DNA of 64,000 nt from Actinomycetota bacterium (lineage in GTDB: Bacteria; Actinomycetota; Thermoleophilia; Gaiellales; Gaiellaceae): NCBI GenBank assembly GCA_005883355.1, contig VAXG01000036.1:1-64000 (forward strand), given 5' to 3'. The stretch's first letter is position 1; each line of letters starts with the position of its first letter. The notes under the pieces are model-generated. The model saw nothing but the letters and a program-made list of their open reading frames with translations. It did no database searches and was not told the origin of the DNA. Below, in pieces: positions 3,040 to 30,006 of the stretch. The translations under genes and the position numbers were made by a program.

Positions 3040-3123
3040 TGCCGAAGGTGGGACTCGAACCCACACGAGGTTTCCCTCACCGGATTTTGAGTCCGGCGCG
3101 TCTGCCAGTTCCGCCACTTCGGC
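3040..3123 (-). tRNA. tRNA-Leu (anticodon CAA)
   Basis: An 84-nt class II tRNA on the minus strand. The 7-bp acceptor stem pairs GCCGAAG with CTTCGGC, the discriminator is A, and CCA is not encoded. The anticodon arm is CCGGA/TCCGG with loop CTCAAAA, giving CAA, which reads UUG. The long variable arm (GTGAGGGAAACCTC) and the GGTTCGAGTCC T-arm are normal for leucine tRNA. Confidence 0.96.
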
Positions 3124-27091: not shown

Positions 27092-29479
27092 TTAACCGAC
27101 GACGAGGTTCACGAGCTTGCGGGGCACGACGATCGTCTTCCGTATCTCCGCGCCGTTCAGCTGCGCCTGCACCTTCGGCGACTCCTTCGCGCGAGCCACG
27201 AGCTCATCCTCCGGCAGGTCGGCCGGAACCTCGATGCGGTCGCGGACCCTCCCGTTCACCTGCACGACCAGCTCGAAGGTGTCCTCTTCGAGCAAGGCGG
27301 GATCGGCCTGCGGCCAAGGGTCCTGCCACAAGCGCGCGTGTCCCAGCCGCTCCCACAGCTCCTCCGCCACGTGGGGCGCGTACGGTTGGATGAGTGACAC
27401 TGCCGTCTCGGCCGCAAACCGAGCGGCGGGATCCCCGGGCGCCTTGACCAGCTCGTTGACGAGCTCCATCACCGACGAGATCGGCGTGTTGAACTGCTGC
27501 CGCCGCCCGAGATCGTCCGTCGCGCGGGCAATGGTCCGATGGGCCTTTCGGGCCAACGCGCCGTCACCGGGCGAACCGTCCACCGCGGAGTCGGCGACGT
27601 CGCCGACCGCGCGCCAGAGCCGCCGGAGGAAACGCTGCATCCCTTCCACACCGGACGGTGTCCACTCCATGTCCTGGTCGGCAGGACCGATGAACAGAAT
27701 CGACAAGCGCGTCGCGTCCGCGCCGTACCCCTCGACGAGCTCGTCGGGTGTGGCAGCGCCTCCGACCCGTTTCGAGATCTTCGCGCCGCCCTGGGTGACG
27801 AAGCCGTTGCCGAAGAAGCGCTTGAAGGGTTCACGGTGAACGCTCAGTCCCAGCTCATTCAGAACCTTCTGGAAGTAGCGGGCATAGATCAGGTGCACCG
27901 TCGAATGGTCGACGCCGCCGGTGTAGTGGTCGACCGGCATCCAGTAGTCCGCGATCTCGCGGTCGTAGGGGGCGTGGTCGTTGCGTGGATCGCAGTAGCG
28001 CAGGAAGTACCACGACGAGTCGACGAAGGTGTCCATGGTCTCGACCTCGCGGCGCCCCTCCTTGCCGCACCGCGGGCACGGGACGCGCACCCAGTCCTCG
28101 GCCTGCGCCAGCGGCGGGACTCCCTTGGGCTTGTAGTCCTGGACATCGGGCAGAAGCACCGGGAGCTCCTCCTCGGGGACGGGAACGATGCCGCAGTCGC
28201 CGCAATAGACGATCGGAATAGGGCAGCCCCAGTAGCGCTGGCGCGAGAATCCCCAGTCGCGCAGCCGGTAGCTCACCGCCGAACGCCCGCGCCCGTGTGT
28301 CCCTAGCCACTCGACGATCGCCTTGGCCGCCTCCTCGTGCGGCAGCCCGGAGAACTGCGCCGAATCGACGAGCTTGCCCTCGTCATCGATGACGACCTTG
28401 ATCGGAAGGTCGAACCGCTCCGCGAACTCACGGTCACGCTCGTCGTGTGCCGGCACAGCCATGATCGCGCCGGTGCCGTAGTCCATCAGCACGTAGTCGG
28501 CGATCCAGATCGGAATGCGCGCGTCGTTGACGGGGTTCGTGGCGAAGAAGCCGGTGAAGACCCCGGTCTTGGTTCCCGCCGCGCGCTCTTCGGCGGGTCT
28601 GGCGCCGGCCTTGCGGACGTACTCGCGGATCTCGTCGCCGGTCGGGGACTTCTCGGCCAGCGAGTCGACGAGTGGATGCTCCGGCGCGAGCACGAAGAAG
28701 GTCGACCCGAACAGCGTGTCGGGACGGGTGGTGAACACCGGGATGTCGATGTCGAGCTCCTCGACCCGGAAGAGGATCTCCGAGCCTTCCGACCGGCCGA
28801 TCCAGTTGCGCTGCATCGCCAGCACGCGCTCCGGCCAGTTCAGATCCTTCATCTCGTCAAGCAGGTGGTCGGCATACGCGGTGATGCGGAAGAACCACTG
28901 GTCGAGCTTGCGCGCCTCGACCTCGAACCCGCAGCGCTCGCAACGGCCGTTCTTGACCTGCTCGTTCGCGAGCACGGTCTGGTCGTTCGGGCACCAGTTG
29001 ACGATCGCCGCCTTTCGGTAGGCCTGCCCCGCCTCGAGGAACTTCAGGAAGAGCCACTGCGTCCAGCGGTAGTACTCGGGGTCGTGCGTCGAGAACTCCC
29101 GCGACCAGTCGATCGCCCAGCCAAGTCTCTTCATCGTCCCGCGTATTTCTTCGATGTTGCGCTCGACGATCTCGCGCGGATGCCCGCCCTCCTTGATCGC
29201 CGCGTTCTCGGCCGGCAGCCCGAAGGAGTCGTAGCCCATCGGGCGCAGCACCTCGGAGCCTGTACGGCGGTAGAAATGGGCGAGGACGTCGCCGAGCGTG
29301 TAGACCAAAACGTGCCCGATGTGCAATGAGCCCGACGGGTACGGCAGCATCTCGAGGACGTAGGACTTCCGCTCGTTGCGCGGCGCCCCGGGCTCGGGGT
29401 TCGGCACCTCGAAGGCGCGGCTCTCCTCCCAGACCCGCTGCCACTTCGTCTCGATTGTGTGCGCGTCGTACTTGTCCAT
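27092..29479 (-). CDS. leuS: leucyl-tRNA synthetase
   Basis: Class I synthetase of 795 residues that charges tRNA-Leu. HIGH is at residues 53-56. The CP1 editing domain has FTTRPDTLFGSTF and IMAVPAHDERD, so proofreading should be present. The anticodon-binding and C-terminal domains (VQVNGRVRDRIEVP) are complete. The KMSKS loop reads KISKR (about 566-570), departing from the usual KMSKS at two positions. Expression is probably controlled by the leader-peptide attenuator immediately upstream. Confidence 0.96.
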   Translation of the reverse strand: MDKYDAHTIETKWQRVWEESRAFEVPNPEPGAPRNERKSYVLEMLPYPSGSLHIGHVLVYTLGDVLAHFYRRTGSEVLRPMGYDSFGLPAENAAIKEGGHPREIVERNIEEIRGTMKRLGWAIDWSREFSTHDPEYYRWTQWLFLKFLEAGQAYRKAAIVNWCPNDQTVLANEQVKNGRCERCGFEVEARKLDQWFFRITAYADHLLDEMKDLNWPERVLAMQRNWIGRSEGSEILFRVEELDIDIPVFTTRPDTLFGSTFFVLAPEHPLVDSLAEKSPTGDEIREYVRKAGARPAEERAAGTKTGVFTGFFATNPVNDARIPIWIADYVLMDYGTGAIMAVPAHDERDREFAERFDLPIKVVIDDEGKLVDSAQFSGLPHEEAAKAIVEWLGTHGRGRSAVSYRLRDWGFSRQRYWGCPIPIVYCGDCGIVPVPEEELPVLLPDVQDYKPKGVPPLAQAEDWVRVPCPRCGKEGRREVETMDTFVDSSWYFLRYCDPRNDHAPYDREIADYWMPVDHYTGGVDHSTVHLIYARYFQKVLNELGLSVHREPFKRFFGNGFVTQGGAKISKRVGGAATPDELVEGYGADATRLSILFIGPADQDMEWTPSGVEGMQRFLRRLWRAVGDVADSAVDGSPGDGALARKAHRTIARATDDLGRRQQFNTPISSVMELVNELVKAPGDPAARFAAETAVSLIQPYAPHVAEELWERLGHARLWQDPWPQADPALLEEDTFELVVQVNGRVRDRIEVPADLPEDELVARAKESPKVQAQLNGAEIRKTIVVPRKLVNLVVG

Positions 29480-29496
29480 GACCGTCCTCAGAAACG

Positions 29497-29519
29497 AAAA
29501 AGCCTCTCGAATGAGAGGC
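29497..29519 (-). terminator. intrinsic terminator in the leuS leader (attenuator)
   Basis: On the minus strand: stem GCCTCTC / GAGAGGC, 4-nt loop, then TTTTT, ending 18 nt before the leuS ATG. A competing pairing (AGGCCG at 29535-29540 with CGGCCT at 29516-29521) would block the first arm. Confidence 0.85.
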
Positions 29520-29590
29520 CGTGGGGAGTTGGCGCGGCCTTCGCCACGGTGGCTCCCTTCCCTACAGAAGCAGCTCCTTCATCGCTCTGA
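29502..29590 (-). promoter_or_regulatory. leucine-responsive attenuator leader of leuS
   Basis: The leader holds a seven-codon frame with three leucine codons, then overlapping inverted segments (CCGTGG/CCACGG, AGGCCG/CGGCCT, GGGAG/CTCCC), and finally an intrinsic terminator. This is the layout of ribosome-mediated attenuation: stalling at Leu codons when Leu-tRNA is scarce would favour the antiterminator and leuS expression. Confidence 0.7.
29562..29582 (-). CDS. leuS leader peptide MKELLL
   Basis: Six residues, ATG AAG GAG CTG CTT CTG then TAG. Half of the codons are leucine and they are consecutive just before the stop, which lies about 43 nt before the terminator stem. No strong Shine-Dalgarno is seen; initiation could be on a short or leaderless 5' end. 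The function is inferred from its position in front of a leucyl-tRNA synthetase gene. Confidence 0.7.
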   Translation of the reverse strand: MKELLL

Positions 29591-29600
29591 CTCTAGCAAC

Positions 29601-29606
29601 CATAAT
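29601..29606 (+). promoter_or_regulatory. -10 box CATAAT for leaderless cupin gene
   Basis: CATAAT lies 7 nt before the cupin ATG at 29614 with no Shine-Dalgarno. It is divergent from the leuS leader. Confidence 0.55.
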
Positions 29607-29613
29607 TGACGAC

Positions 29614-30006
29614 ATGAGCGATTTCACACATCTCAATCTCAAGGATGCCGAGGATCAGGCGCCGAACTTCGGTCTCTCGCCGGATCTCGAGTTCCGAATG
29701 GCTCGCGTGCCCTTGCGGCTCGAGCAGTCGGGGCTCAGCTATTGCCGCGTCGCCCCCGGTTTTCGTCTGCCCTTCGGCCACAAGCACAAGAACCAGGAGG
29801 AGGTCTACGTCCTCGTCAGCGGGGCAGCGCGGATGAAGATCGAGGACGAGGTCAAGGAGCTCAAGCAGTGGGATGCCGTTCGCGTCCACAAGGACACGAT
29901 GCGATCGATGGAGGCCGGCGACGAGGGGGCGGAGTTCCTGATTGTCGGAGCGCCCAACACCGGCCCCGGCGACGCCGAGATGGTCCAGGGCTGGTGGAGC
30001 GGGTAA
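29614..30006 (+). CDS. cupin-domain protein
   Basis: A 130-residue single-domain cupin. The conserved motif 1 histidines are in GHKHKNQEEVYVLVSG and motif 2 ends AGDEGAEFLIVGAP. The metal-binding set (His, His, Glu) is present in motif 1, so it is likely a metal-binding beta-barrel; the substrate is unknown. The ATG at 29614 is fixed by the CATAAT box. lysA follows with an overlapping or very close start, so the two are probably co-transcribed. Confidence 0.85.
   Translation: MSDFTHLNLKDAEDQAPNFGLSPDLEFRMARVPLRLEQSGLSYCRVAPGFRLPFGHKHKNQEEVYVLVSGAARMKIEDEVKELKQWDAVRVHKDTMRSMEAGDEGAEFLIVGAPNTGPGDAEMVQGWWSG

Follow-up and report, generated by a model that had tools for sequence, protein, structure and literature searches.

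A leucine-dependent attenuator is highly likely to lie ahead of leuS, the gene for leucyl-tRNA synthetase, in a member of the Gaiellaceae (Actinomycetota; Thermoleophilia). The element is found in a 64,000-nucleotide (nt) stretch of contig VAXG01000036.1 (assembly GCA_005883355.1), which is called the window below. It comprises a six-residue leader reading frame with three leucine (Leu) codons, a hairpin (P1) and an intrinsic terminator, an arrangement that very probably raises synthetase production when charged tRNA-Leu runs short. Attenuation of leuS, including the leaderless type, has already been reported in Streptomyces; the element of the window is therefore a variant of that known kind. 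A first-pass annotation of the window had proposed a leucine-rich leader and an intrinsic terminator before leuS. This is supported: the leader accompanies the terminator in 68 of 78 upstream regions from relatives, and the same plan is seen at 20 distant loci. Judged across these genomes, the conservation of leader, codon choice and spacing is not a matter of chance.

Upstream regions were collected with residues 1-213 of LeuS as the query, which matched in 61/61 genomes of the relatives set and, at an expectation value (E) of 1e-60, in 92 of 103 family genomes. Of the 105 leuS upstream regions obtained, the family contributed 91 and other families of the same order 14; a terminator-like hairpin is present in 81 of the 105. 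Three outgroup matches with unrelated hairpins (G054, G041 and G038) were removed, which leaves 78 regions (77 family, one other). The rule for a leader demanded a pair of adjacent Leu codons, preceded at 1-6 codons by a start codon, and a stop codon 15-60 nt ahead of the terminator; the promoter was ignored. Against the 68 leaders found by this rule stand 42 in 3900 dinucleotide shuffles of the same regions, and a leader together with a rightly placed -10 hexamer is found in none (0/3900). The residue that is doubled is Leu in all 68 leaders, Gln in five, Thr in two and Ala in one. The peptide had been described as unusually short, but six residues is the family norm (47/68). Typical leaders are MKELLL, MEQLLL, MQQLLE, MQELLLT and MNLLLT (first residue written M), and TAG, TGA and TAA all occur as leader stop codons.

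No such leader is present in 14 upstream regions of other synthetase-like genes in family genomes, nor in six more leuS regions from other families. Among the other families of the order (14 loci and six more) it is found at one locus only (G040:C2, L006), at a contig edge; the leuS there is 72% like that of the window, and the contig is perhaps a stray. The exact terminator pattern occurs once each in 19 of 37 genomes searched and is absent from the other 18, and its matches lie just upstream of the leuS match. The 14 family loci without a terminator match include six of genus g10, one interrupted by N, and one (G113) with leader and P1 present, where the leuS start had been placed too far upstream. 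In the six g10 genomes (L015, L038, L039, L041, L046 and L053), both leader and terminator are absent before leuS. One genome of the window's genus (G007:C30) has a second, diverged leuS (L095), which has its own leader, MSIRQLLPGPR, and a different terminator; it is counted among the 68.

The position of the promoter makes it quite likely that the leader is translated as a leaderless message, with transcription starting at or next to the start codon. The motif TAnnnT is found 6-11 nt ahead of the leader start in 67/68 cases, compared with 6 of 571 upstream background intervals of equal width. The single miss, G068, is due to a wrong start chosen by the rule; for the MNRLLP frame of this region, TAnnnT lies 8 nt ahead of the start. 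In Streptomyces lividans, TAnnnT is reported as the -10 motif from mapped starts, 4-9 nt ahead of the transcription start (PMC8079986). A scan of the region for the sigma-70 consensus found nothing; promoters of the TAnnnT type need not meet this consensus. The first-pass annotation had seen no clear Shine-Dalgarno sequence before the leader. This is borne out, and would be explained by a transcription start that probably coincides with the start codon or adjoins it.

The leaders also differ from the gene in their choice of Leu codons. CTT makes up 87 of 167 leader Leu codons, compared with 7 of 176 in the N-terminal parts of leuS from 11 relatives; in the window's own leuS it accounts for 4 of 60. 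For the geometry, 65 regions were used. These exclude the second leuS of G007, and also G010_L021 and G035_L089, in which the P1 rule found no hairpin (P1 is visible by eye in both). The anchor codon was defined as the Leu codon whose end comes closest to 10 nt ahead of P1. It is CTT in 50/65 and CTC in 15/65, and never another codon. By the decoding rules, tRNA-Leu(GAG) reads both CTT and CTC. The source genome has 53 tRNA matches; ten of approximately 82-91 nt were examined with ARAGORN, and tRNA-Leu with the anticodons CAA, TAA, TAG, CAG and GAG was found, one each. Since the sensor codon is confined to CTT and CTC, the device would read a single isoacceptor, tRNA-Leu(GAG). If tRNA-Leu(GAG) is an isoacceptor sensitive to starvation, the CTT/CTC preference of the leaders would agree with the theory in PMC1183508.

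The comparison shows that evolution has kept CTT or CTC at a fixed distance from a hairpin; peptide, stop codon and antiterminator pairing are not what is retained. The distance from the end of the anchor codon to P1 is 9-11 nt in 64/65 regions (14 nt in one). The end of the stop codon is more variable, and may lie up to 10 nt inside P1 or up to 8 nt ahead of it; the standard deviations are 0.65 nt for the anchor codon and 2.95 nt for the stop codon. P1 itself is 23-43 nt long and has 13 different outer 5-nt arms. These arms covary, with 5.48 pairs for an arm and its own partner versus 4.75 for permuted partners (0/1000 permutations); it should be noted that P1 was located by best pairing near its expected place, and that the permutation repeats this search only on the 3' side. 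P1 ends 3-6 nt ahead of the CCTC of the terminator. When P1 is looped out, the terminator begins 11-14 nt past the anchor codon in 62/65 regions, while the stop codon is 39-44 nt from the terminator in most relatives. RNAalifold, run on a MAFFT alignment in which the leader of G065 was trimmed to the inner ATG, recovered the terminator and three inner pairs only. It missed most of P1 because P1 misaligns, and the anchored comparison was therefore used.

The same plan is found outside the family. In a scan of 80 leuS loci of named genomes with a looser rule which required TAnnnT, 24 were positive: four from the window's family and 20 distant loci with LL(L) leaders of the leaderless type. The distant titles include Planobispora, Streptosporangium, Nonomuraea, Thermoactinospora, Actinomadura, Nocardioides, Marmoricola, Arthrobacter and a Nanopelagicales bin. 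In all 20 of these loci the last Leu codon is again one of the two, CTT at 18 and CTC at two. P1 begins 4-5 nt after this codon in 18/20 loci (2 and 6 nt in the others) and comes within 0-1 nt of the terminator. The stop codon, either ahead of P1 or within it, starts 0-27 nt downstream of the last Leu codon. The standard deviation is 0.82 nt for the distance from Leu codon to P1, versus 7.97 nt from stop codon to P1.

Folding and permutation suggest, on balance, that this attenuator has no classical antiterminator. The pair AGGCCG (29540-29535) and CGGCCT (29521-29516), which the first-pass annotation had assigned this role, does exist in the window, but the role is unsupported. The exact pair occurs in 4/65 regions (the window and three other rows), three of which belong to the window's genus. 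Over the 65 rows, the P1 strand and the terminator arm form 4.985 pairs in their own combinations and 5.027 in permuted ones, with no coadaptation. Comparison of leuS upstream regions, put forward earlier as a check, finds the Leu codons and the terminator kept, but not the AGGCCG/CGGCCT pairing. An extension of P1 into the base of the terminator was also tried as an antiterminator and rejected; it is attractive in single folds, but the flanks pair slightly worse with their own partners than with permuted ones.

Masked folding gave the same picture. The transcript was folded up to the 5' arm of the terminator, and the ribosome was represented by a mask that extends 9 nt past a chosen codon. 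With the mask at the second Leu codon the mean pairing of the arm is 0.16 (above 0.5 in 6/67), at the first Leu codon 0.26 (5/67), at the stop codon 0.38 (12/67), and with no ribosome 0.47 (26/67). The arm is therefore freest in the starved state, the opposite of what a classical antiterminator requires. In the distant set, with masks that reach no more than 9 nt beyond the last Leu codon, mean pairing is at most 0.157, and 0/20 loci exceed 0.5. An antiterminator overlapping the terminator, as in trp/leu-type attenuators, was found neither by folding and permutation in the family nor by folding in the distant set.

These results are slightly in favour of a full model in which the element is a leucine-responsive, ribosome-mediated transcription attenuator with a leaderless leader, where the stalled ribosome blocks the terminator directly and P1 acts as a spacer. 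Transcription would start at or next to the leader ATG, as the conserved -10 spacing indicates, and the ribosome would translate MKELLL* from a leaderless message. When charged tRNA-Leu(GAG) is ample, the ribosome would reach the stop codon and open the base of P1 or leave. The terminator could then form about 41 nt beyond the stop, and transcription would end before leuS. When charged tRNA-Leu is low, the ribosome would stall with CTT or CTC in the A site and its leading edge at the foot of P1. P1 would loop out about 34 nt, and the start of the terminator, otherwise about 47 nt from the stalled codon, would then be only about 11-14 nt beyond it. The ribosome would then hinder closure of the terminator directly, and RNA polymerase would read on into leuS. 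P1 may additionally pause RNA polymerase, which would give the ribosome time to arrive.

The fixed distance from sensor codon to P1, together with a mobile stop codon, indicates that the position of P1 is matched to a ribosome halted at leucine; such a ribosome would end at the foot of P1 if it covers about 10 nt beyond the A site, the figure given in PMC4824070. Direct blocking with P1 as a spacer is proposed from this spacing and from the repression of stop-proximal terminators in E. coli, as reported in PMC4824070: a stop codon moved to 5 bp ahead of a terminator lowers termination from approximately 90% to less than 10%, and a terminator near a stop codon is repressed but recovers beyond approximately 27-30 nt. 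That P1 serves as a collapsible spacer, set between the ribosome and the terminator, is a tentative assignment. Slightly more tentative is the joint reading, according to which this would be an amino-acid attenuator that needs no antiterminator, where a ribosome shift of 2-3 codons alters its effective distance to the terminator, which is about 12 nt before the shift and about 40 nt after it, where one isoacceptor, tRNA-Leu(GAG), is sensed through CTT/CTC, and where several orders of Actinomycetia have the plan in common with the window's own, Thermoleophilia-like family.

Several observations weigh against direct blocking or against the strength of the comparison. The rows are related genomes, and the counts are not independent events. 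Ten of the 78 terminator-bearing regions have no leader by the rule, which is the case (leader lost, terminator kept) that the first-pass annotation had named as refuting. The ten comprise one region cut by a contig edge, two that have lost the Leu pair but keep a single CTT 10 nt ahead of P1, which speaks for the model, three collapsed leaders and four in which the leader is gone or replaced. In the collapsed leaders L023, L063 and L060 (G027, G107 and G108), there is no P1, and about 5 nt separate the Leu codons from the CCTC of the terminator. The adjacent Leu codons there are not CTT or CTC, and one leader is without its GTG start; apart from this lost start and the codon choice, the three genomes fit direct blocking. 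The distance of 11-14 nt from codon to terminator leaves no direct overlap between stalled ribosome and terminator. PMC4824070 estimates that a terminator can fold fully once 10-15 nt of mRNA downstream of the A site are free; the distance here is at the edge of that range, and blocking might be partial. Folding of the window indicates that P1 and the terminator can form together, and blocking would therefore need the bulk of the ribosome. The family and distant sets differ in the detail of their spacing, and with 4-5 nt from Leu codon to P1, rather than 10, the ribosome would overlap P1 in the distant set. Finally, the arm is more paired without a ribosome (0.47) than with one at Leu, and a pairing-based effect of opposite sign might also play a part.

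Two terminator-bearing regions of the window's genus, L070 (G002) and L075 (G006), keep the terminator, while leader and promoter are replaced by sequence resembling the divergent gene. This replacement is either a deletion or a misassembly.

Classical attenuation of the trp/leu type, in which stalling of the ribosome would release a segment for pairing with the 5' arm of the terminator (AGGCCG/CGGCCT or another), is an unlikely account of the element. The exact pair is present in the window and its few companions, and antiterminator hairpins have been reported in the leuS leaders of Streptomyces (PMC1262725). However, pairing between P1 and the terminator arm is no better than permuted, the same is true of the P1 flanks, and the arm is rarely paired above 0.5 with the ribosome at the second Leu codon (6/67), and at none of the 20 distant loci under masks of up to 9 nt. 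It is distinctly less likely that P1 is a pause hairpin only, which lets the ribosome catch up while termination is relieved by a step invisible in the sequence, for example through a factor or because the polymerase is pushed. In 64/65 regions, 10-12 nt separate the end of P1 from that of the CCTCTC arm (gaps of 4-6 nt plus 6; one gap is 3), and hairpin-stabilised pauses have this distance of 10-12 nt. Pausing is also required in tlrB (PMC6851288). A pause hairpin leaves unexplained why the Leu codon, and not the stop codon, keeps its distance to P1.

Translational control is very improbable. It would have the C-rich 3' arm of P1 pair with the Shine-Dalgarno sequence of leuS once P1 opens, and CTCCC or CTTCC in P1 is indeed complementary, by eye only, to GGAG-like sequences before leuS; however, a strong terminator sits between the two, and in some relatives leuS starts 10-12 nt after the terminator, which leaves little room for such a site. 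Unregulated tandem hairpins with a terminator and a fortuitous short open reading frame (ORF) are hardly credible: some relatives do have the terminator without a leader, but leader, codon choice and spacing are far above the shuffles and recur in distant actinobacteria.

The attenuation proposed here can be compared with several known systems. Enterobacterial trp, leu and his attenuators have regulatory codons in a leader peptide and an intrinsic terminator before the structural gene. The leuS leader of the window shares both traits, but differs in its six-residue leader, the lack of a Shine-Dalgarno sequence, and the lack of a detected overlapping antiterminator. In the pyrBI leader of E. 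coli, the position of the ribosome directly represses the terminator, and uridine triphosphate is sensed through the speed of the polymerase. The direct effect of the ribosome on the terminator proposed for leuS would be alike, but the pyrBI signal is not an amino acid. Short leaderless poly-Cys ORFs of mycobacteria are said to be attenuators with runs of one codon; they concern cysteine and other genes.

In Bacillus subtilis tlrB (yxjB), no overlapping antiterminator was identified according to PMC6851288, and a stalled ribosome would prevent the terminator from forming, as proposed here. Attenuation without an identified antiterminator therefore exists. The tlrB system differs in that it is induced by tylosin, has a NusG-dependent pause and is also under translational control (PMC6851288). 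Attenuators of leuS were predicted in 2005 in Streptomyces avermitilis and S. coelicolor (PMC1262725). Like the element described here, they lie before leuS and have a short leader with a Leu run, followed by a hairpin and a U-rich terminator. PMC1262725 names an antiterminator for Streptomyces, whereas none was found conserved in the window's family or at the 20 distant loci, which include no Streptomyces leuS leaders. For LeuL2 of S. lividans TK24, leaderless transcription has been described from 5'-end data; this peptide has 12 residues (MRAVRLLLSEPR), compared with six here (PMC8079986). In open-licence PubMed Central papers, no description was found of a codon-to-hairpin spacing or of an amino-acid attenuator without an antiterminator, and nothing on leader peptides of Thermoleophilia. 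The present comparison contributes many leuS leaders from outside Streptomyces. Should the spacer model hold, searches which insist on an overlapping antiterminator have missed attenuators that lack one. How far the ribosome stands from the terminator would then be a regulatory variable, testable by simple spacer changes.

The layout of the region is given in Table 1. The reading frame which the first-pass annotation had placed ahead of leuS is confirmed, as are the terminator stem and its T-run; the distance from the last T to the leuS ATG is 17 nt and not 18, as had been stated. The fold of the entire stretch has an energy of -39.1 kcal/mol, compared with -31.35 kcal/mol in shuffles (z -2.31; 3/200 shuffles), which is weak taken alone. 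No Rfam family fits. The T-box was unmatched in the window at gathering scores, and in 29450-29650 up to E 10; the search of the latter interval to E 10 gave seven matches, all far under their own cut-offs. The LEU element of PMC1262725, a pseudoknot ahead of leuA, does not fit, as the gene here is leuS and a terminator is present.

Table 1. Features of the leuS upstream region in the 64-kb window
Feature	Position	Strand	Basis or remark
Extended -10-like element TG-C-TAGAGT	29598-29590 (TAGAGT 29595-29590)	minus	7 nt ahead of leader ATG; sequence
Leader ORF ATG AAG GAG CTG CTT CTG TAG (MKELLL*), probably leaderless	29582-29562	minus	sequence and relatives
Anchor Leu codon CTT	29570-29568	minus	ends 10 nt ahead of P1; CTT/CTC here in 65/65
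P1 hairpin	29557-29524	minus	folding and arm permutation in relatives
P1 outer arms GGGAG / CTCCC	29557-29553 / 29528-29524	minus	
P1 inner arms CGTGGC / GCCGCG	29548-29543 / 29538-29533	minus	
Intrinsic terminator GGCCTCTC-ATTC-GAGAGGCT and T-run	29520-29497	minus	five T at 29501-29497
Shine-Dalgarno-like GAGG of leuS	29489-29486	minus	sequence
leuS, leucyl-tRNA synthetase, 795 amino acids	29479-27092	minus	name from reading of sequence; present in 61/61 relatives searched

A divergent ORF (cupin-like by eye) begins on the plus strand with an ATG at 29614, and CATAAT at 29601-29606 ends 7 nt ahead of it. This ORF may also be leaderless, in which case it would have a very short intergenic region in common with the leuS leader promoter. 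A tRNA-Leu(CAA) gene is found in the same window as leuS, at 3040-3123 on the minus strand.

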